From Dokdonella fugitiva (GTDB lineage Bacteria; Pseudomonadota; Gammaproteobacteria; Xanthomonadales; Rhodanobacteraceae), in assembly GCF_014138265.1 (NCBI RefSeq), contig NZ_JACGXL010000001.1, positions 1,124,525 to 1,188,524 on the forward strand: DNA of 64,000 nt, given 5' to 3'. Numbering within the stretch: position 1 is the first letter of the stretch; the number at the start of each line of letters is the position of its first letter. Shown here piece by piece: positions 50,526-62,635 of this stretch. Made by a program: the position numbers and the translations under genes. The notes under the pieces were generated by a model. It searched no databases. It was not told the origin of the DNA and saw only the letters and a list, made by a program, of their open reading frames with translations.

Positions 50526-53500
50526 ATGGATCTGCGTTCGCCCGCGTCGCGCCTGCGACTCGTCGGCACGGCGTTGCTCGTCGCCGTCACCCTCGCCGCC
50601 TGCAACCGTTCCGCCGACCAGGTGCCGGAAGTGCAAGGCAAGAAGCCCATCGCGGCCGAGGCGGCCAAGCCGGCGAAGGCCGAAGGCTTCGCACTCGCCT
50701 CCGCGCGCGCCGAGCAGCACGACGGCCAGCTCGCGCTCGCGCTCGAATTCAGCCAGCCGCTGGTCGGCACGCAGGCGTTCGACACGCTGATCGGCGTGAC
50801 CGATCCGAAGGGCGCCGCCGTGGAGGGCAGCTGGTCGCTCGACGAGGACGGCAAGACGCTGCACTTCCCGTTCATCCAGGCCGACCAGAGCTACGCGGTC
50901 AAGATCAAGGGCGAGCTTGCCGCCGCCGACGGCAAGACGCTCGGCAGCGAGCTGTCCAAGGACGTCTACACCGGCCCGATGGAACCGAACGCGGCGTTCG
51001 CCTCGCAGGGCAACGTGCTGCCCGCGCGCGAGACGCGCGGCCTGCCGGTGATCTCGGTCAACGTCAAGGACGTCGACGTCGAGTTCATGCGCGTGCGCGA
51101 CGAGGAAGTCGCGAACTTCTTCGCCGCCTACCAGAAGAACGGCAAGCGCAGCTCCTACGAACTCGATCCGCGCTACGGCTGGGGCCGCGAGGGCTCGCCG
51201 ATCACGCAGATCGCCGACTCGGTCTACTCGAACCGCTTCGCGCTCGCCGGCAAGGACAACGAGCGCGCGGTCAACTACCTGCCGATCCAGTCGATCTCCG
51301 AACTGTCCAAGCCCGGCCTGTATTTCGCGGTGATGAAGCGCGCCGGCACCTTCAACGAGGAGTTCGAGACGAGCTTCTTCTTCGTCAGCGACATCGGCCT
51401 GCACACGCGCGCTTACGCGCAAGCACTGTTCGTGCACGCGGCGTCGCTGAAGAGCGGCGCGCCGCTCGCGGGCGTCGAATTGTCCGTGCTCGACGGCAAG
51501 GGCGAGTCGATCGTCGCCGGCAAGACCGACGGCAACGGCAACGCCCAGCTCGCCTACACGCTCAAGGCCGACCAGGTGCTCGTCGCGAAGAGCGGCAACG
51601 ACGTCTCGCTGCTGCCGTTCAACCAGCCGGCGCTCGACCTGTCCGACTTCGCGGTCGCCGGCCGCAAGCAGGCGTGGTTCGACGTGTTCGCGTGGGCCGA
51701 CCGCGACCTGTACCGCCCGGGCGAGACGATCGCGCTGTCGGCGCTCTTGCGCGACTTCGACGGCAACCTGATCAAGCCACAGCCGCTGTTCATCACGCTC
51801 AAGCAGCCGGACGGCCGCACCTACGCCGAGACGAAGCTCGAACCGAAGGACCTCAACTACTTCGAATGGTCGCGCGAGATCCCGGTCGACGCGCCGACCG
51901 GACGCTGGCAGGTCGAGTTCCGTACCGACCCGAAATCGAGCCAGGTCACGCAGGGTCTCACGTTCCGCATCGAGGAATTCCTGCCCGAGCGCCTCAAGCT
52001 CGATCTCGCGAGCGAACAGGCCGTGCTCAAACCCGGCGAGCCGCTCAAGCTCGCGGTCGAGGGCGACTACCTCTACGGCGCGCCGGCCGCGGGCAACCGC
52101 TTCACCGCGCGCCTCACCGTCGCCGCCGACCAGCATCCGGTCGACGCGCACAAGGATTTCTGGTTCGGCGATCCGACCGTCGAGTTGCCCAAGGAAGCGA
52201 AGGACGTCGTCGACGAAGCGCTCGACGAGCACGGCAAGCTCGAGCAGGACATCGAGATCCCCGAAGGCGCGAAGCCGGCGACGCCGATTGCCGCGATGCT
52301 CTCGGGCAGCGTCTACGAAAGCGGCGGCCGCACCGTCACGCGCACGCTCAAGCGCACCGTATGGCCGGCCGAGGCGCTGGTCGGCGTGCGCCCGCTGTTC
52401 GACCTCAAGGAAGGCTCCGACGCGCGTGGACGCGCGGGCTTCGAACTGATCCGCAGCAACGCGGCGGGCGACCTCGTAGCAGGCCAGCACCTCAAGCTCA
52501 CGCTCGTGCGCGAGCACCGCGATTTCCACTGGACCTTCGACAAGGACAGCGGCTGGCACTTCGAATACGTGCAGCGCTACGAGGACAGCGAGAAGCGCGA
52601 CATCGACGTCGAGGCGGGCAAGGTCGCGAAGTTCGACGTGCCGGTCGACTGGGGCAACTACCGCGTCGAGATCCTCGATCCGGCGACCGGCCTGACCACG
52701 CGCCTGCCGTTCTTCGCGGGCTGGAGCTGGAACGACGACAACCGCGGCAAGGAAGCGCGTCCCGACAAGGTCAAGCTCGCGCTCGACAAGCCGAACTACC
52801 ACGAAGGCGACACGCTCAAGGTCACGATCACGCCGCCGCAGGGCGGACCGGGCCTGCTGCTGGTCGAGTCGGACCATCTCATCTATTCGAAGAACATCGA
52901 CGCGCAGCCGGGCGCGGTGTTCGAGATCCCGGTGACGAAGGAGTTCGAGCGCCACGACGTCTACGTGACCGCGCTGGTGTTCCGCGGTGGTTCGGCGACC
53001 GACAAGATCACCCCCGCACGCGCGGTCGGCGAAGCCTGGGTGCCGATGGATCGCGCCAACCGCAAGATCGACGTCGCGGTCGACGCGCCGAAGCAGATGA
53101 AGCCCGAGACCGACCTGCCGGTCGCGGTGAAGGCGCCCGCGCTCGCGGGCAAGAAGGCCTACGTGACCGTCTCCGCGGTCGACGTCGGCATCCTCAACAT
53201 CACGCGCTTCGCGCGCCCGGACGCGAACGCGTGGTTCTTCGCGCAGCGTGCGCTCGGCATCGACGCGTACGACCTGTACGGCCGCGTGATCGAGAGCTTC
53301 GACGGCAACACGGCCAAGCTCCGCTACGGCGGCGACATGGCGCTCGGCGCGCTGCCGCAGGCGCGCCGGCCGACCGCCAAGGTGCTGACCGTCGATCTCT
53401 TCTCCGGCGTCGTGGCGCTCGACGCCAAGGGCGAGGCGAAGGTCGCGCTGAAGATGCCCGACTTCAACGGCACGGTGCGCGTCGTGGCGCAGGTGTTCGG

Positions 53501-55484
53501 CGAGAACCAGTACGGTGGCGCCGATGCCGAGACGATCGTGCGCGCGCCTTTGGTCGCCGAGATCTCGACGCCGCGCGTGCTCGCGCCGGGCGACAAGTCG
53601 GCGCTCACGCTCGACCTGCAGAACTTCTCCGGCAGCGAGCGCGAGTTCGCGGTCAAGGTGTCGACGCAGAAGCCGCTCGCGATCGACAAGGGCGAGCGCA
53701 AGGTCAAGCTCGCCGACGGCGCCAAGACCACGCTCAATTTCCCGCTCAGCGCGCTCGACGGCTACGGCGTCGGCAAGATCGCCGTGCAGGCGTCGAGCGG
53801 CGAACTGAAGATCGACCGCCACTTCGAGATGGTCGTGCGCGCGGCGTGGCCGAGCGTGATGCGCTCGAGCGCGCGTTCACTCGACGCGCTCGCCCCGGTC
53901 ACGCTCGGCGGTGACGCGATCGACGGCCTGCTCGCCGATTCGGTCGCCGCGCGCCTGACCGTGTCGAGCCTGCCGCCGCTGCCGTTCGCCTCGGCGCTGC
54001 AGGACCTCCTCAAGTATCCGTACGGCTGCATCGAGCAGACCACCAGCAAGGGGTACGGCGCGTTGCTGCTCGACGACAAGACCGCCGAGAACCTGCACAC
54101 CGACGGCCTGCCCGCCGAGCAGCGCAAGGAGCGCGTCGACGGTGCGATCGGCCGCATCGCCTCGATGCAGATCCCGTCGGGCCACTTCTCGATGTGGGGC
54201 GGCGACAGCTACGTCAACGAGTACATCACGCCGTACGTGGTCGAGTTCCTCGAGGACGCGCGCGACGACGGCTTCCTCGTTCCCGACGAGATGCTGCAGA
54301 AGGCGCTCAAGCGCCTCAACGACGACCTGCTCTCGGGCGGCCACCCGTTCTACGGCTACGAGCACAGCGACCACTTGCGCTTCGCCAACGAGGCGTACTC
54401 GGGCTACGTGCTCGCGCGCGTGAACCGCGCGCCGCTCGGCACGTTGCGCGCGTTGTACGACAACGACAAGGGCAAGTCGGTCACCGCGCTGCCGCTCGTG
54501 CACCTCGCGATCGCGCTCAAGCTCATGGGCGACGAGCCGCGTGCGCAGAAGGCGATCGCCGACGCGTTCGCGATGAAGGTCGAGCGCCCGTGGTACCTCG
54601 GCGACTACGGCTCGAACCTGCGCGACACCTCGCTCATGCTCGCGCTCGCGCACCGCTACGGCCTGTCCAAGCCGGAATACGACGGCCGCGTGTTCGACAT
54701 CGCGCGTTCGCTCGGCAACGAGGAACACCAGGCGAGCGACCAGCAGCGCAAATACGGCTACCGCTGGCTCTGGCTCAGCACGCAGGAGCAGATCGCGATC
54801 GCGCGCCTCGGCAAGACGCTGATCAAGGACGGCGACAAGGTCGTGTCGGGTTCGCTCGCGATCGGCGCGAACACGAGCGAGATCAGCCCGGACCGCCTGT
54901 GGAGCCGCACGTTCGCCGGTACCGACCTCGCCGCGGGCGTGCGCTTCACGCCGCAGGGCGACCTGCCGCTGTACGTGAGCACCGACATCGCCGGCATCCC
55001 GAAGACCGCACCCGCGCCGGACGACCACTACGTGTGGATCCAGCGCCAGTTCTACACGCTCGACGGCAAGCCGTGGGAACCGGGCCCGCTCAAGGAAGGC
55101 GACAGCCTCATCGTCGGCCTCAAGCTCGAGGCGCGCGAGGCGATGCCAGACGCGCTGCTGGTCGACCTGCTGCCGGGTGGCCTCGAGATCGAGAATTTCA
55201 ACCTCACCGACGCCAAGCAATGGGCCGACGTCGTCGTCGACGGCATCACGATCACCGATCGAGCGCAGGCGGCCGAAGTGCGCCACGAGGAGTTCCGCGA
55301 CGACCGCTACGTCGCCGCGCTCAACCTCGGCAAGGGCCAGACCGCGCACGTCTTCTACCTCGTGCGCGCGGTGACGCCGGGCACGTTCCAGGTACCGCCG
55401 CCACTGGTCGAGGACATGTACATGCCGCAAGTGCGCGGCATCGGCAAGAGCACCCCGGCATCGGTGAGAGTCGTCGAACCTTGA
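50526..55484 (+). CDS. yfhM: Bacterial alpha-2-macroglobulin lipoprotein (YfhM type)
   Basis: A 1652-residue periplasmic lipoprotein, almost the same length as E. coli YfhM (1653). It has a lipobox (LAAC, C26). MG-type beta domains occupy roughly 40-1100, including FDVFAWADRDLYRPGETIAL and KLALDKPNYHEGDTLKVTIT. The thioester motif is CIEQ with C1168 in YPYGCIEQTTSKGYGALLLD, followed by an alpha/alpha toroid and a C-terminal receptor-type domain. Such proteins trap invading proteases by covalent capture and protect the cell when the envelope is breached, commonly with PBP1C, which is two genes downstream. The ribosome-binding site GGGGAG precedes the start. Confidence 0.96.
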   Translation: MDLRSPASRLRLVGTALLVAVTLAACNRSADQVPEVQGKKPIAAEAAKPAKAEGFALASARAEQHDGQLALALEFSQPLVGTQAFDTLIGVTDPKGAAVEGSWSLDEDGKTLHFPFIQADQSYAVKIKGELAAADGKTLGSELSKDVYTGPMEPNAAFASQGNVLPARETRGLPVISVNVKDVDVEFMRVRDEEVANFFAAYQKNGKRSSYELDPRYGWGREGSPITQIADSVYSNRFALAGKDNERAVNYLPIQSISELSKPGLYFAVMKRAGTFNEEFETSFFFVSDIGLHTRAYAQALFVHAASLKSGAPLAGVELSVLDGKGESIVAGKTDGNGNAQLAYTLKADQVLVAKSGNDVSLLPFNQPALDLSDFAVAGRKQAWFDVFAWADRDLYRPGETIALSALLRDFDGNLIKPQPLFITLKQPDGRTYAETKLEPKDLNYFEWSREIPVDAPTGRWQVEFRTDPKSSQVTQGLTFRIEEFLPERLKLDLASEQAVLKPGEPLKLAVEGDYLYGAPAAGNRFTARLTVAADQHPVDAHKDFWFGDPTVELPKEAKDVVDEALDEHGKLEQDIEIPEGAKPATPIAAMLSGSVYESGGRTVTRTLKRTVWPAEALVGVRPLFDLKEGSDARGRAGFELIRSNAAGDLVAGQHLKLTLVREHRDFHWTFDKDSGWHFEYVQRYEDSEKRDIDVEAGKVAKFDVPVDWGNYRVEILDPATGLTTRLPFFAGWSWNDDNRGKEARPDKVKLALDKPNYHEGDTLKVTITPPQGGPGLLLVESDHLIYSKNIDAQPGAVFEIPVTKEFERHDVYVTALVFRGGSATDKITPARAVGEAWVPMDRANRKIDVAVDAPKQMKPETDLPVAVKAPALAGKKAYVTVSAVDVGILNITRFARPDANAWFFAQRALGIDAYDLYGRVIESFDGNTAKLRYGGDMALGALPQARRPTAKVLTVDLFSGVVALDAKGEAKVALKMPDFNGTVRVVAQVFGENQYGGADAETIVRAPLVAEISTPRVLAPGDKSALTLDLQNFSGSEREFAVKVSTQKPLAIDKGERKVKLADGAKTTLNFPLSALDGYGVGKIAVQASSGELKIDRHFEMVVRAAWPSVMRSSARSLDALAPVTLGGDAIDGLLADSVAARLTVSSLPPLPFASALQDLLKYPYGCIEQTTSKGYGALLLDDKTAENLHTDGLPAEQRKERVDGAIGRIASMQIPSGHFSMWGGDSYVNEYITPYVVEFLEDARDDGFLVPDEMLQKALKRLNDDLLSGGHPFYGYEHSDHLRFANEAYSGYVLARVNRAPLGTLRALYDNDKGKSVTALPLVHLAIALKLMGDEPRAQKAIADAFAMKVERPWYLGDYGSNLRDTSLMLALAHRYGLSKPEYDGRVFDIARSLGNEEHQASDQQRKYGYRWLWLSTQEQIAIARLGKTLIKDGDKVVSGSLAIGANTSEISPDRLWSRTFAGTDLAAGVRFTPQGDLPLYVSTDIAGIPKTAPAPDDHYVWIQRQFYTLDGKPWEPGPLKEGDSLIVGLKLEAREAMPDALLVDLLPGGLEIENFNLTDAKQWADVVVDGITITDRAQAAEVRHEEFRDDRYVAALNLGKGQTAHVFYLVRAVTPGTFQVPPPLVEDMYMPQVRGIGKSTPASVRVVEP

Positions 55485-56851: not shown

Positions 56852-59227
56852 ATGCGAACGCGCACCGCGCCCTCTCCTGCGTCACCCCGCCGCTGGCGAC
56901 GGCGCCTGCGCCACGCCACGGCATGCGTCGTGCTGGTCGCAACGCTGGTGTTCCTGCTCGACCGCCTGTTCCCGCTGCCGCTGCCCGACGGGTTGGGCGG
57001 CAGCACGGTGGTGCTCGCGCGCGACGGCACGCCGCTGCGTGCGTTTCCCGACCGCGACGGCGTCTGGCGCTATCCGGTCGCGGTCGAAGACGTGTCGCCG
57101 CTCTACGTCGAGGCGCTGCTCACCTATGAGGACCGCTGGTTCTGGCGCCATCCGGGCGTGAATCCGTTCGCGCTCGCGCGTGCATTCGCGCAGTGGATCG
57201 TGCACGGCCGGCTGGTTTCCGGAGGCTCGACGTTGACGATGCAGGTCGCGCGCATCCTCGACGGCATGCCGCACAGCGCGCTCGGCAAGTTGCGCCAGAT
57301 CGCGCGCGCGCTGCAGCTCGAGGCGCACCTGTCCAAGCGCGAGATCCTCGCGCTCTACCTCGAGCGCGCGCCGTTCGGGGGCACCATCGAAGGCGTCGAG
57401 GCGGCATCGTGGGCCTACCTCGGCAAACCCGCCTCGCGCCTCTCGCGCGCGGAAGCCGCGTTGCTCGCCGTGCTGCCGCAGATGCCGAGCCGGCTGCGCC
57501 CGGACCGCAACGCGGATGCCGCGCGCGTCGCGCGCGACAAGGTGCTCGCGCGGATGGCCGACCTCGGCGTGTGGACGCCCGCCGAAGTACACGACGCGCG
57601 CGTCGAGTCGGTCGCTGCGCGCGCGCTGCAGCCACCGCTGAGCGCAGCGCTGCTCGCCGAACGCCTGCATGCGGAACGACCGGGCGAACGGCGCATCGCG
57701 ACGACGATCGACGCGGAGCTGCAGCATGCGCTCGAAGCGCGCGTGAGCGACTACCTCGGACGCCTGCCCGAGCGCACTTCGGCTGCGCTGCTCGTCGTCG
57801 ACAATGCGACGCTCGGGGCGCGTGCGTACGTCGGCTCGGCGGAGTTCGGTGACGAACAGCGGCTCGGCCACGTCGACATGGTGCGTGCATGGCGTTCGCC
57901 CGGTTCGACCCTGAAGCCGTTCCTCTACGGACTCGCGCTCGACGACGGCCTCATCGATTCGGAGAGCCTGCTCGTCGACGCGCCGCAGTCGTTCGGCGGC
58001 TATCGCCCCGGCAATTTCGATCTCGCCTACAACGGCCCGATCGGCGCCGCCGAAGCGCTGCGCCTGTCGCTCAACGTGCCTGCGGTCGACCTCGTCGACC
58101 GCATCGGTCCGATCCGCTTCGCCGCGCGCCTCGCCAACGCCGGACTCGACCTGCGCCTGCCGCGCGGTGCCGCGCCGAACCTGTCGGTGATCCTCGGCGG
58201 TGCGGGCGTGCGCATGGAGGACCTCGTCGGCGCATACACCGCGCTCAATCGCGGCGGCGTCGCCGGTCGCGTGCGCTACGCCCGCGACGACGCGACGATC
58301 GATCGACGCATCCTGTCCGACGGCGCGGCGTGGATCGTGCGCGACATCCTCGAGGCGAATCCGCGTCCCGGCTACGCCCCGGGCACGTTCGATCCCGGCT
58401 CGCGTCCACGCGTCGCCTGGAAGACCGGCACGAGCTACGGCTTCCGTGACGCCTGGGCGGTAGGTGCTACGCGCACCTACACGATCGCGGTGTGGATCGG
58501 CCGCCCCGACGGCACGCCGCTGCCGGGCCAGTACGGCGCGGTCACCGCGCTGCCGCTGATGTTCCAGATCGTCGACAGCCTGCCGCGCAGTGCGGTCGCT
58601 GCGGCACCGTCGCCGCCGCCGCCGGGCGTGAGCGAGCGCGAGGTGTGCTGGCCGCTCGGTCTCGCCTACGACCCGGCGCATCCCGAGCTGTGCCACCAGA
58701 AGCACACCGCGTGGGTGCTCGACGGGGTGATCCCGCCGACGCTGGCCGAGCGTGATGCGACGAGCTGGAGCGCCGGCCTGCTGCATGTGCGCGTCGACGC
58801 CGCGACCGGCGAACGCCTCAGCGCCGGCTGCGAGCGCAGGCGCGCGCGCGAGGTCGACGTCGCGCGCTGGCCCGCCCTCGTCTATCCATGGCTGTCGCGC
58901 GACCTGCGTCGGCGCGCGAGCCTGCCGGGCCTCGCGCGCGGCTGCGCCGAGGACGGCCTCGCCGCGACCTTGCCGCTGCGCATCGACGGCATCGGCGCGG
59001 ACGCGGCGATCGCCCGCGCGCCGAACAGCAGCACGCCGGCGACCCTGCACCTGCGCGCACTCGGCGCGGCCGGCGACGTGCAGTGGCTCGTCAACGGCCG
59101 CCTTGCCGGCAGCACCCGCGGCGGCGCCGCGTTCGAACATGCGTTCGAGCACACCGGGCCGCAAACGATCACTGCGCTCGCCGACAGTGGCGCCTGGGCG
59201 CAATTGCAGGTGCGCGTGTTGCGCTGA
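56852..59227 (+). CDS. pbpC: Penicillin-binding protein 1C
   Basis: A 791-residue bifunctional peptidoglycan synthase. It has one N-terminal membrane helix (about 24-38). The GT51 glycosyltransferase domain has catalytic Glu93 in TYEDRWFWRHPG and VSGGSTLTMQVARI. The transpeptidase has the nucleophile Ser352 in SPGSTLKPF, SLN in LRLSLNVPAVDL and the KTGT box (WKTGTSYGFRDAW). The C-terminal PBP1C-specific BiPBP_C domain completes it (HLRALGAAGDVQWLVNGRLA). PBP1C with YfhM is thought to repair and guard the wall after attack. The length is close to the E. coli protein (770). Confidence 0.95.
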   Translation: MRTRTAPSPASPRRWRRRLRHATACVVLVATLVFLLDRLFPLPLPDGLGGSTVVLARDGTPLRAFPDRDGVWRYPVAVEDVSPLYVEALLTYEDRWFWRHPGVNPFALARAFAQWIVHGRLVSGGSTLTMQVARILDGMPHSALGKLRQIARALQLEAHLSKREILALYLERAPFGGTIEGVEAASWAYLGKPASRLSRAEAALLAVLPQMPSRLRPDRNADAARVARDKVLARMADLGVWTPAEVHDARVESVAARALQPPLSAALLAERLHAERPGERRIATTIDAELQHALEARVSDYLGRLPERTSAALLVVDNATLGARAYVGSAEFGDEQRLGHVDMVRAWRSPGSTLKPFLYGLALDDGLIDSESLLVDAPQSFGGYRPGNFDLAYNGPIGAAEALRLSLNVPAVDLVDRIGPIRFAARLANAGLDLRLPRGAAPNLSVILGGAGVRMEDLVGAYTALNRGGVAGRVRYARDDATIDRRILSDGAAWIVRDILEANPRPGYAPGTFDPGSRPRVAWKTGTSYGFRDAWAVGATRTYTIAVWIGRPDGTPLPGQYGAVTALPLMFQIVDSLPRSAVAAAPSPPPPGVSEREVCWPLGLAYDPAHPELCHQKHTAWVLDGVIPPTLAERDATSWSAGLLHVRVDAATGERLSAGCERRRAREVDVARWPALVYPWLSRDLRRRASLPGLARGCAEDGLAATLPLRIDGIGADAAIARAPNSSTPATLHLRALGAAGDVQWLVNGRLAGSTRGGAAFEHAFEHTGPQTITALADSGAWAQLQVRVLR

Positions 59228-59553
59228 CGAATGGTTGGGTGGGCCGACGAAAGAAGTGGCCACCACGCCCGGTCTGTCGCGGCGACCCGGTGGCGATGGT
59301 GCTGCGCTGCATCGTTGCCGGCGTCGTGCAAGGAAACGCCCGCGATCGCGGTCTTGATCGGCGTACCGGCACATTGCAGCGCAGCAATCGACGAAGCGTT
59401 CGCCCGCAGCGGCGAAGCGTGACATCGGGAGCGACCGTTGCGGGTCGAATACGCCGCGTTAACGCGAACGCGATTAACGTAGAGAGGCCAGTCGCCGGAC
59501 GCTCGGCGCAAACCAGGGGCATGCGCCCCATCATCCATACGGAGATCACTCGA
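59228..59553. other. 326-base intergenic region upstream of the metallophore cluster
   Basis: No supported gene; the short frames present are low-complexity. It probably holds the promoter of the precursor gene. TTGCGG (59438-59443) and TAACGC (59460-59465), 16 bases apart, are the best -35/-10 pair I see. GCGTTAACGC at 59456-59465 is a perfect palindrome, followed by the related GCGATTAACG. This may be an operator. The ribosome-binding site GGAGA lies at 59541-59545. Confidence 0.4.
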
Positions 59554-60057
59554 ATGTCCAGCAAGATCGGCAACACCCTCAGCGTCGCGATCGGCGCAGC
59601 GTTCATCGGTTCGCTTTCGCTGAGCCAGCTCGCCGCGGCCAGCCCGGCGTTCCAGGCCAGCGACCTTGCGACGGGCTACATGCTCGCGGCCGCCGGCGAA
59701 GGCAAGTGCGGCGAAGGCAAGTGCGGCGTCGAGAAGATGGACACCAACAAGGACGGCAAGGTGTCGATGGAAGAAGCGAAGGCGGCGAAGATGGCCGACC
59801 TCGAGAAGCACTTCAAGGACGTCGATACGAACGGCGACGGTTTCGTCGACAAGGCGGAAATGGACGCGCACCATGCCGCGATGAACAAGAAGGGCAAGGA
59901 AGCGTCCTGCGGCGGCGACAAGAAGAAGGCCGAAGGTTCGTGCGGCGGCGACAAGAAGAAGGCGGAAGGTTCCTGCGGCGGCGACAAGAAGAAGTCCGCC
60001 GAGGGTTCGTGTGGCGGCCACAAGGACGCCGAGGGCAGCTGCGGCGGCGCCCGCTGA
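59554..60057 (+). CDS. HvfA/BufA-like RiPP metallophore precursor with EF-hands
   Basis: A 167-residue exported protein. The signal peptide ends near QLAAA-S (about 30). A tandem [10 protein letters not shown] lies at 49-58, followed by two EF-hand loops, [12 protein letters not shown] (63-74) and [12 protein letters not shown] (91-102). Then come one ASCGG and four EGSCGG units spaced by Lys-rich linkers (C119, C130, C141, C153, C163). EGKCG repeats are the sites modified by MNIO enzymes in HvfA-type precursors (Cys to oxazolone/thioamide), and the next two genes are such an enzyme and its partner. The EF-hands between two Cys blocks are unusual. ATG 59554 follows GGAGA by eight bases; ATG 59521 is an alternative. 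Confidence 0.82.
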
Positions 60058-60058
60058 G

Positions 60059-60934
60059 ATGCCCATCCGTAGTCCCGCGCTGCACGGTGCAGGACTCGGC
60101 CTGCGGCGGGCCCTGTTGGGCCCGCTGCAGGAACACCTCGCGACCGCCGCCGAGGCGGAGCCGCGCGCGATCGATTTCTTCGAGATCGCACCGGAGAACT
60201 GGATCGGCGTCGGCGGCAAGCTCGGCCGCAGCCTGCGCGAGCTGACCGAACGCCATGCGTTCGTCTGCCACGGCCTGTCGCTCTCGCTCGGCGGACCCGA
60301 GCCGCTCGACGAAACGCTGCTCGCACGCATCCGCCGCCTGCTCGATGCGCACGGCATCGGGGTCTATTCCGAACATCTGTCGTACTGCTCCGACGACGGC
60401 CACCTGTACGACCTCATGCCGATTCCGTTCACCGACGAGGCCGTGCACCACGTCGCCGCACGGATCCGCCAGACGCAGGACGTGCTCGGCCAGCGCATCG
60501 CGGTCGAGAACGTGTCGTATTACGCGGCACCGTCGCAGGCGATGACGGAGATCGACTTCGTCAACGCGGTGCTGCGCGAGGCCGACTGCGACCTGCTGCT
60601 CGACGTCAACAACATCCACGTCAACAGCGTGAACCACGGCTACGACGCCGGCGCGTTCCTCGACGCCCTGCCCGGCGAACGCGTCGCCTACATCCACGTC
60701 GCCGGCCACTACGTCGAAGCGCCGGACCTGCTGGTCGATACGCACGGCGCGGCGATCATCGACCCGGTCTGGCAGCTGCTCGCGCGCGCGTACCGCAACT
60801 TCGGCGTGCGGCCGACGCTGGTCGAACGCGACTTCAACTTCCCGCCGCTCGCCGAACTGATCGGAGAGGTGCACACGATCCGCACGATCCAGGCCGACCA
60901 CGGGAGCGCGAGTCGCGATGCGCGCAGCGCCTGA
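60059..60934 (+). CDS. DUF692 multinuclear non-haem iron oxidase (MNIO), HvfB/BufB/MbnB type
   Basis: A 291-residue TIM-barrel enzyme of the DUF692 family. Members bind two or three irons and convert Cys residues of a precursor peptide to oxazolone/thioamide or related groups. The ligands and neighbours are in place: [83 protein letters not shown] and [12 protein letters not shown]. It starts one base after the precursor stop and overlaps the partner gene by 17 bases. The product of the modification is inferred. Confidence 0.93.
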
Positions 60935-61694
60935 GGCCGGCTCCACCCGCGCGGCGCAGTACGCGTTCGCCGCGCACATCCGCGATCCGCTGCGCGCGCC
61001 GGCACCGCCCGACGTCGAACCGCGCCGCATGGCCGTCTACACGGAACTGTTCTTCAACAACGTGTCGAACCTGCTCGCGGCGAACTTCCCGGTGATCCGG
61101 CGCCTGCACGACGACACGGCCTGGGAAGCGCGCGTGCGCGCGTTCTACCGCGACCATCGCGCGCGCACGCCGTTGTTCACCGAGATCGCGCGCGAGTTCA
61201 TCCGCCATCTCGAAGCACGCGCCGACGCCGGTGCGGGCGATCCGCCGTTCCTGGTCGAACTTGCGCACTACGAATGGAGCGAACTCGCGCTCAGCCTCGA
61301 CGAAGCCGACGTGAACGCGCCCGGTTGCGACCGCGCCGGCGACGTGCTCGCCGGCGTGCCCGTTCTGTCGCCGGTCGCGCGCCTGCTCGCCTACCGCTGG
61401 CCGGTGCACCGCATCGGGCCCGACTTCATCCCCGACGAACCCGCACCGCAACCGGTGCTGCTGCTGCTCGTGCGCGACCGCGACGACGAGGTGCGCTTCA
61501 TCGAGATCGACGCGCTCTCGGCGATGCTGGTCGAGCGCCTCGGCGCGAACCGGCACCGCACGGGCGCCGGCTGCATCGACGACCTGCTCGCCGAACTGGG
61601 CCGCGCGGGCGATCCGGCGCTGCTGGCGTCCGGTGCGGCGATCCTGAACCACCTGCGCACGCGCGACGTGATCCTCGGCACCGCCGTCGCCTGA
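60918..61694 (+). CDS. DUF2063 partner protein, HvfC/BufC-like
   Basis: A 258-residue protein of the DUF2063 family that recruits the precursor peptide to the DUF692 oxidase. The N-terminal helical domain has [33 protein letters not shown] then NFPVIRRL, and [15 protein letters not shown]. The rest ([34 protein letters not shown]) is standard for the family. Its start lies inside the end of the oxidase gene, so the two are translated together. No DoxX-type membrane gene (HvfD) follows; the next genes are on the other strand. Confidence 0.9.
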
Positions 61695-61729
61695 GCGGTC
61701 GCGTGGCCGCGATCGACCGTGACCGCCCG

Positions 61730-62635
61730 CTAGCCCGACGCCGACTTCACGAGCAGGTGCTTGGCGAGCGCGCCCTGCAGGTGGCCGACGCCGCGCGCGA
61801 GGTGGAGCACCGCGAACGGCAGCACGATCCCGAGCAGCAGCGCGAGCGGCATGATCACGAGCGGCGGCACGACCGACTGGCCGTCGAGGTAGATGCCGCC
61901 CTCGATGACGCCGAACTGCGCCAGCACGAGCGCGAACGGCCCGGCGATCATGCCGATCGACAACGTGATGCCGACCACCGCGAGCGTGAAGTAGAGGATG
62001 CCGAGCGGCAGCATGAGCACCATGTACAGCAGCGTCGACCACGTGCGCGGATCGGTGAACATCGCGGTGATGCGCGCGCGCCAGGACAGCTCGCGGTCGG
62101 TGTACGGCGGCCGCCGTGGCATGCGCTCGCCGAGCATGACCTCGATGATGCGTCCCTCGACGAGCGCGAGCACGCGCACGGTACCGAAGAACAGTACTGC
62201 GAACGCGATGCCGAAGATGAGGATCGACAGGCCGAGCGAGAGCGACAGGCCGGTCACCGCCCAGGTGAAGTAGAAAATGCCGGTCGCGAGCGACAGCAAC
62301 ATGTAGAACAGTGCGGCGTACGCGCGCGGATCGCCGGCGACGCCGAAGAAGCGGCCGATCGCGCTACGCCGCGGCGGCGGCGGCGGCGGGCGCAGCGCCT
62401 GCTGCACCACCTGCTCCTTGTCGACGTAGATCGCGGCGACCTCTTCCGGCGCACCATAGCTGTTGGCAATCTTCGCGAGCACGTCCGCTTCGGACTTGCC
62501 CGGGTTCTCGGCGAGCTCGGCGCGCAGGTGGTCCTCGGCGTCGTAGAGCGCGTCCTGGATCAATGCCGGGTCGGCGCCGCCGAGCGCGGCGCGCAGCTGG
62601 TCGAGGTATTCCCTGATCGTACGTGGCGTGCTCAT
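61730..62635 (-). CDS. Membrane sensor/permease-like protein (HAAS-type N-terminus plus putative sensor domain)
   Basis: A 301-residue protein. Residues about 1-75 are a soluble helical part of the HAAS/DUF1700 kind (TIREYLDQLRAALGGADPAL, DAEDHLRAELAENPGKSEAD, VLAKIANSYGAPEEVAAIY). After a poly-Pro linker come two similar blocks with paired membrane helices (FYMLLSLATGIFYFTWAVTG and LYMVLMLPLGILYFTLAVVG). They resemble the 'putative sensor' domain. Such proteins are typically coded with PadR regulators, as here. The start overlaps the padR stop (ATGA). The signal sensed is unknown. Confidence 0.82.
   Translation of the reverse strand: MSTPRTIREYLDQLRAALGGADPALIQDALYDAEDHLRAELAENPGKSEADVLAKIANSYGAPEEVAAIYVDKEQVVQQALRPPPPPPRRSAIGRFFGVAGDPRAYAALFYMLLSLATGIFYFTWAVTGLSLSLGLSILIFGIAFAVLFFGTVRVLALVEGRIIEVMLGERMPRRPPYTDRELSWRARITAMFTDPRTWSTLLYMVLMLPLGILYFTLAVVGITLSIGMIAGPFALVLAQFGVIEGGIYLDGQSVVPPLVIMPLALLLGIVLPFAVLHLARGVGHLQGALAKHLLVKSASG

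Follow-up and report, generated by a model that had tools for sequence, protein, structure and literature searches.

The window analysed here, a stretch of 64,000 nucleotides from Dokdonella fugitiva, contains a compact cluster of three genes (59554-61694, + strand), the first of which encodes a RiPP precursor with a pair of EF-hand loops between two blocks of cysteine motifs. The cluster is a real and conserved feature. The two-sided cysteine layout and the near-fixed distance between cysteine and calcium ligand are new, and the remainder is mostly of a known kind. Based on the gene families and their conservation, it is reasonably probable that the cluster is an HvfABC-type (captophorin/oxazolin) operon whose single modifying enzyme would act on both blocks, yielding a periplasmic copper buffer with a calcium-folded spacer.

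Gene cluster and precursor architecture

The precursor gene (59554..60057, +; ATG at 59554, stop codon at 60055-60057) encodes 167 residues of the HvfA/captophorin type with EF-hands (NF050137, EF-hand_5). A probable ribosome-binding site, GGAGA, lies 8 nt 5' of the ATG (59541..59545, +). It is kept in 5/5 aligned same-genus upstream regions (D. fugitiva window included) and is, by eye, their sole clear common element. The N-terminus looks hydrophobic by eye, and about residues 1-30 (59554..59643, +) are a probable Sec signal peptide. A29, F33, L38, G41, and Y42 are invariant in 12/12 aligned EF-type precursors. The N-terminal Cys block (residues 49-58, 59698..59727, +) contains C52 and C57. 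It is followed by EF-hand loop 1 (residues 63-74, 59740..59775, +) and loop 2 (residues 91-102, 59824..59859, +), which were found both by Pfam and by a strict pattern and have canonical ligands throughout. The C-terminal Cys block (residues 116-165, 59899..60048, +) consists of five [AG]SCGG units with C119, C130, C141, C153, and C163, completing the seven cysteines of the precursor.

The MNIO gene (DUF692/MbnB_TglH_ChrH, HvfB family; 60059..60934, +; NF003818, PF05114) starts with its ATG at 60059, one base past the precursor stop, leaving a gap of 1 nt. The ATG of the HvfC-type partner (DUF2063 + NGO1945_C; 60918..61694, +; NF050145, PF09836, PF22106), the presumed precursor-recognition protein, overlaps the MNIO end by 17 nt. 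The coordinates, precursor motifs, and tight junctions given in an earlier note on this DNA were thus all borne out. The MNIO matches PF05114 with E 3.2e-103, the only such match in the genome, and the partner matches DUF2063 with E 3.5e-24. The HvfB model NF003818 (434.5 bits, cut-off 360), the HvfC model NF050145 (290.3 bits, cut-off 142), and the HvfA domain NF050137 (27.4 bits, cut-off 19.5) all score above their cut-offs, which is the basis for the HvfABC-type reading. The HvfA equivalog NF050188 scores 18.9 bits, below its cut-off of 95, and the precursor is therefore filed as HvfA-type by domain and not as HvfA proper. Other MNIO families fit less well: the BufB model reaches 266.6 bits (cut-off 310), the methanobactin MbnB-type model TIGR04159 51 bits (cut-off 325), and DUF2282, the Bufferin Buf1 precursor domain, is absent among the Pfam matches of the locus.

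The 5' neighbour is a PBP1C-like gene (Transgly, Transpeptidase, BiPBP_C), and the 3' neighbours on the opposite strand encode a HAAS/Sensor protein and a PadR regulator; neither DoxX nor a known metal gene is among the three neighbouring ORFs scanned. The PBP1C-like gene (56852-59227) sits just upstream of the cluster and 1.4 kb past a bacterial alpha-2-macroglobulin gene (50526-55484 of the window). A scan of 59200-61900 gave no promoter-like site and one terminator-like site (mean of 1.7 in shuffled sequences). Inverted repeats are absent from the precursor gene.

EF-hand_5 (PF13202) matches two stretches of the precursor with E 3.4e-10 and 39.4 bits (cut-off 25.9). In 20,000 shuffles of precursor residues 49-167, searched with a PROSITE-type EF-loop pattern, two loops never appeared and at least one appeared 181 times, so the EF pair is not a product of chance. 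The earlier note had allowed that a separate EF-hand gene might have been fused here by annotation error. This is excluded because relatives repeat the same layout and the whole-gene Ka is below Ks against 4/4 same-genus orthologues compared (Ka 0.049 vs Ks 0.22 against the nearest, L003). The nearest named relative, L032, is from D. fugitiva and is 90% identical.

An AlphaFold2 model of the precursor based on 41 sequences has a mean pLDDT of 58.4 and a pTM of 0.38. Residues 61-110 reach 85-91 by block (loop 1 in blocks of 85-86, loop 2 in blocks of 86-91), residues 32-56 and 126-167 stay below 50, and both Cys arms, including most of the C-terminal block, are mostly of low confidence. EF-hand proteins, alone or in a complex, make up the best 50 of 857 Foldseek matches; the best E is 0.025, and none of these 50 is at or below 0.001. 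The 41 sequences had been picked beforehand as EF-type; EF-hand_5 is matched by all of them and the HvfA domain by 40.

The calcium unit inside the cysteine array

The earlier note had proposed a search for other precursors combining EF-hands and Cys motifs beside DUF692, and such precursors were found. An HvfB profile search in 398 genomes of the order matched 304, of which 215 were above the cut-off. Loci were taken from the best 150 HvfB places by E-value (hand count), and weaker HvfB loci are therefore missing. After leaving out eight places near contig ends and two others, the survey comprised 140 loci, some sharing a genome. Two strict EF loops are present in the precursors of 47/140 loci, and a Cys block follows the EF pair in 44 of these 47, none following in the other three. 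In the surveyed part of the order the EF pair is thus usually placed inside the Cys array and not at its end, and precursors of this group seem as a rule to have a rear block behind the calcium unit. One locus (L187) has a single strict loop and resembles an EF pair whose first loop has changed; 91 loci lack EF loops, and one lacks a precursor ORF. L117, L140, L174, L185, L205, and L208 are cut by contig ends, their precursors, where found, being counted among the 91. Loose-pattern EF calls inside the repeat arrays of L117, L131, L135, L151, L154, L190, and L196 were rejected as false. In the viral collection there was one locus (L112), where the motif ORF was not found in the orientation given.

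A separate set of 80 named loci was chosen by likeness to EF-type precursors and is hence biased. It contains 33 loci with EF-hands, rear cysteines, and an MNIO, one with EF-hands and rear cysteines without MNIO, three with EF-hands and MNIO without rear cysteines, 22 with EF-hands and neither of these, 15 with an MNIO and no EF-hands, and six with neither. All 22 loci that have EF-hands and lack both rear cysteines and MNIO have Pseudomonas in their titles (the sequences of L071 and L086 break off shortly after the gene). Together with the bias of the set, this confounds with taxonomy the association of a rear block with a neighbouring MNIO.

These Pseudomonas loci (L071, L074-L079, L081-L084, L086, L087, L089-L091, L093, L094, L101, L107, L109, and L110) encode EF-hand EGKCG precursors. 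HvfB is above the cut-off in 24/25 genomes (the 22 Pseudomonas and those of L092, L097, and L104). An EGKCG precursor within 400 nt upstream of HvfB was found in 0/10 loci examined, L241 having one spurious ORF. In these genomes the maturase thus seems to act on the EF precursor in trans. In the two loci that were read, a NADH-dehydrogenase-like gene lies upstream (by eye).

Spacing between cysteines and calcium ligands

For the spacing we compared 97 EF-pair precursors, drawn from all loci gathered and each differing from the others within the last 90 residues; here and in the MNIO analysis, Ala was also allowed at loop position 8, while the survey counts use the strict pattern. The distance from the last Cys before the EF pair to the first Ca ligand is 6 residues in 67 precursors, 9 in 26, 18 in two, and 7 and 13 in one each. 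It is 6 in 66/72 precursors with a rear block and 9 in 24/25 without. The distance from the second loop to the first rear Cys ranges from 9 to 28 residues in those 72 precursors, and the loop-to-loop distance from 24 to 29 among the 97. Kinship inflates the constancy of these spacings, but the comparison of front with rear gaps draws on one and the same set of 72 proteins. Immediately ahead of the EF pair, 81/97 precursors have EGKCG. The conserved 'L..GY' region was matched in 43/88 EF and 89/108 other precursors with a pattern too narrow for these counts to be telling.

Motif types and conservation of the MNIO

In both blocks of the 97 precursors the residue before Cys is most often Lys, followed by Ser, and the rear block of the relatives is K-type, S-type, or mixed. 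Arrays entirely free of Lys also occur beside HvfB, all Ser (GSCG) in L161 and L163 and all Ala (GACG) in L158 and L173. From 211 MNIOs found, 195 were distinct and at least 255 residues long, and R16, R17, D258, and F259 are invariant in 195/195, unchanged across the precursor tail types. These residues were paired by motif, not by alignment, with Arg15, Arg16, Asp249, and Phe250 of FonB, the specificity/catalytic residues described in the excerpted text of PMC13097082. The occurrence of EGSCG and EGACG arrays beside HvfB enzymes with known specificity residues widens the predicted substrate range.

In a FastTree tree of the 195 MNIOs at least 14 changes are required to explain the EF/no-EF label, with 10 rows without precursor uncounted and 63/192 inner branches open. 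The EF pair therefore seems to be a module that has come or gone several times, gain and loss not being distinguished by the tree.

The earlier interpretation stands in part. Its idea that two motif types may mean two modification states is unsupported and unnecessary, given that precursors of EGSCG or EGACG units only adjoin the same type of HvfB with the four residues invariant, and that FonBC, as far as the excerpts of PMC13097082 go, lets Ala, Arg, or Thr take the place of the Lys. Its oxazolone/thioamide chemistry is out of date: in the parts of the texts available, 5-thiooxazole was later assigned to EGKCG products, oxazolin included (PMC13097082), with support from PMC13419390. The calcium-gated fold that it suggested is possible.

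Proposed function and alternatives

In the cytoplasm, HvfC would bind the precursor by its N-terminal part and present the Cys motifs to the MNIO, which would turn the Cys of both EGKCG and [AG]SCGG motifs into 5-thiooxazole. The product is probably secreted; the modified precursor would leave the cytoplasm through Sec. In the periplasm, Ca2+ would occupy the two EF loops and the central unit would fold, flanked by two flexible thiooxazole arms that would bind copper. As judged from sequence, the precursor likely binds copper via enzyme-modified cysteines on both sides of the EF-hand unit. The spacer with flexible arms is suggested by the confident EF region and the mostly low-confidence arms of the model. 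Modification of both blocks is suggested by the 44/47 two-sided precursors with rear blocks of K-, S-, or mixed type, by the all-Ser and all-Ala arrays that adjoin HvfB enzymes with four invariant residues, and by FonBC, which accepts Ala, Arg, or Thr at the Lys position and Ala after Cys (PMC13097082, in excerpt). Several points speak against this explanation. The enzyme might not accept S-type arrays as substrates, and these would then bind metal as plain thiols. Some EF-type relatives (such as L046 and L051) have a single motif before the EF pair, and FonBC turnover needed two repeats according to the part of PMC13097082 available. The low equivalog score, the three neighbouring ORFs lacking DoxX or a known metal gene, and the E-values of the best 50 of 857 Foldseek matches weigh against it as well.

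It is rather unlikely that only the N-terminal EGKCG block is modified and the SCGG tail serves with free thiols or disulphides as a separate soft-metal arm. This would fit the predominance of EGKCG directly before the EF pair (81/97), its gap of exactly 6 in 66/72 precursors with a rear block, the variable motif and spacing of the rear block, and the absence of Ser from the residues that the excerpts of PMC13097082 report for FonBC. However, precursors made solely of EGSCG or EGACG repeats adjoin HvfB, and the four MNIO residues are the same whatever the tail. We regard as unlikely that the EF pair is a Ca2+ switch, open for the enzyme without Ca2+ in the cytoplasm and folded with Ca2+ in the periplasm, where the arms would share a copper site. 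The near-fixed Cys-to-EF spacing is compatible with such coupling to a calcium-gated fold, and the position of the EF pair between the arms (44/47 EF precursors of the survey) and the canonical ligands of both loops agree with it, but the C-side gap varies widely (9 to 28), the model has little confidence in either arm, and 91/140 HvfB loci lack EF loops, which means that the basic function does not require calcium. That Ca2+ folding after export joins the thiooxazoles of the N- and C-arms in one copper site, making a calcium-clasped copper peptide, is quite doubtful. If true, it would be a RiPP with calcium-dependent copper affinity, hence differing between cytoplasm and periplasm. With the EF pair inside the array and a near-fixed Cys-Ca distance, the link between calcium and copper is directly testable with the three genes.

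Relation to known systems

Precursors with EF-hands and EGKCG beside an MNIO are not new as such. In the excerpted text of PMC12452194, EGKCG precursors are divided into two types, the second of which has two EF-hand_5 fused C-terminally to a short EGKCG domain. These chimaeras occur in clusters with MNIO and DUF2063 genes, and the roles suggested for them concern copper and perhaps Ca2+ homeostasis or signalling. In our precursor, too, a short EGKCG block, which in the Buf_EGKCG/EF-hand_5 chimaeras follows a predicted TM helix, precedes two EF-hand_5 units, and the precursor is a variant of this type and not a non-member. The difference is that the published EF-hands are C-terminal and no Cys block behind them is mentioned in that excerpt, whereas here five SCGG units follow; that the chimaeras end with the EF-hands is our reading of the text. 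Among the matches listed in the openly licensed literature we recognised no further paper on an EF-hand/HvfA fusion.

The HvfABC system of Haemophilus influenzae (oxazolin; PMC13419390, PMC13097082, both in excerpt) shares HvfB- and HvfC-family enzymes and EGKCG motifs, but the D. fugitiva precursor stays below the HvfA equivalog cut-off and has EF-hands and an SCGG tail in addition. The fontiphorin/captophorin cluster FonABC is, in the part of PMC13097082 available, also a minimal ABC cluster with MNIO, PME1, and Lys-Cys motifs, and its specificity residues RR and DF have counterparts in the D. fugitiva MNIO, but EF-hands have 0 occurrences in the main text. Bulbicupramide (MmrABC, Microbulbifer) is alike in its EGKCG cassettes and MNIO/DUF2063; according to the excerpts of PMC12538549 its product binds copper and the EGKCG precursor loses 4 H per Cys, whereas EF-hand has 0 occurrences in the text.

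Lanmodulin is weakly alike, our precursor scoring 17.6 bits against NF053806, far below the cut-off of 135, and 28/41 EF-type precursors matching at E <= 0.001. The EF loops of lanmodulin have Pro at loop position 2, unlike the precursor loops, where this is found in 2/194. Since the precursor scores far under the cut-offs of both the lanmodulin and the XopAW profile, these matches were put down to generic EF-hand similarity.

Some HvfA-type precursors (L014, L016, and L036) have another central unit with two Cys (KKCTEMPDKAAQDKC-like) in place of the EF-hands. Their tails carry the motif EGSCS, which has Ser after Cys; in the excerpts of PMC13097082, Ala is the only substitute for Gly that FonBC tolerated at this position. 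In L022 and L176 an acidic residue precedes Cys (GECG, GDCG), and Glu at that position severely impaired FonBC.
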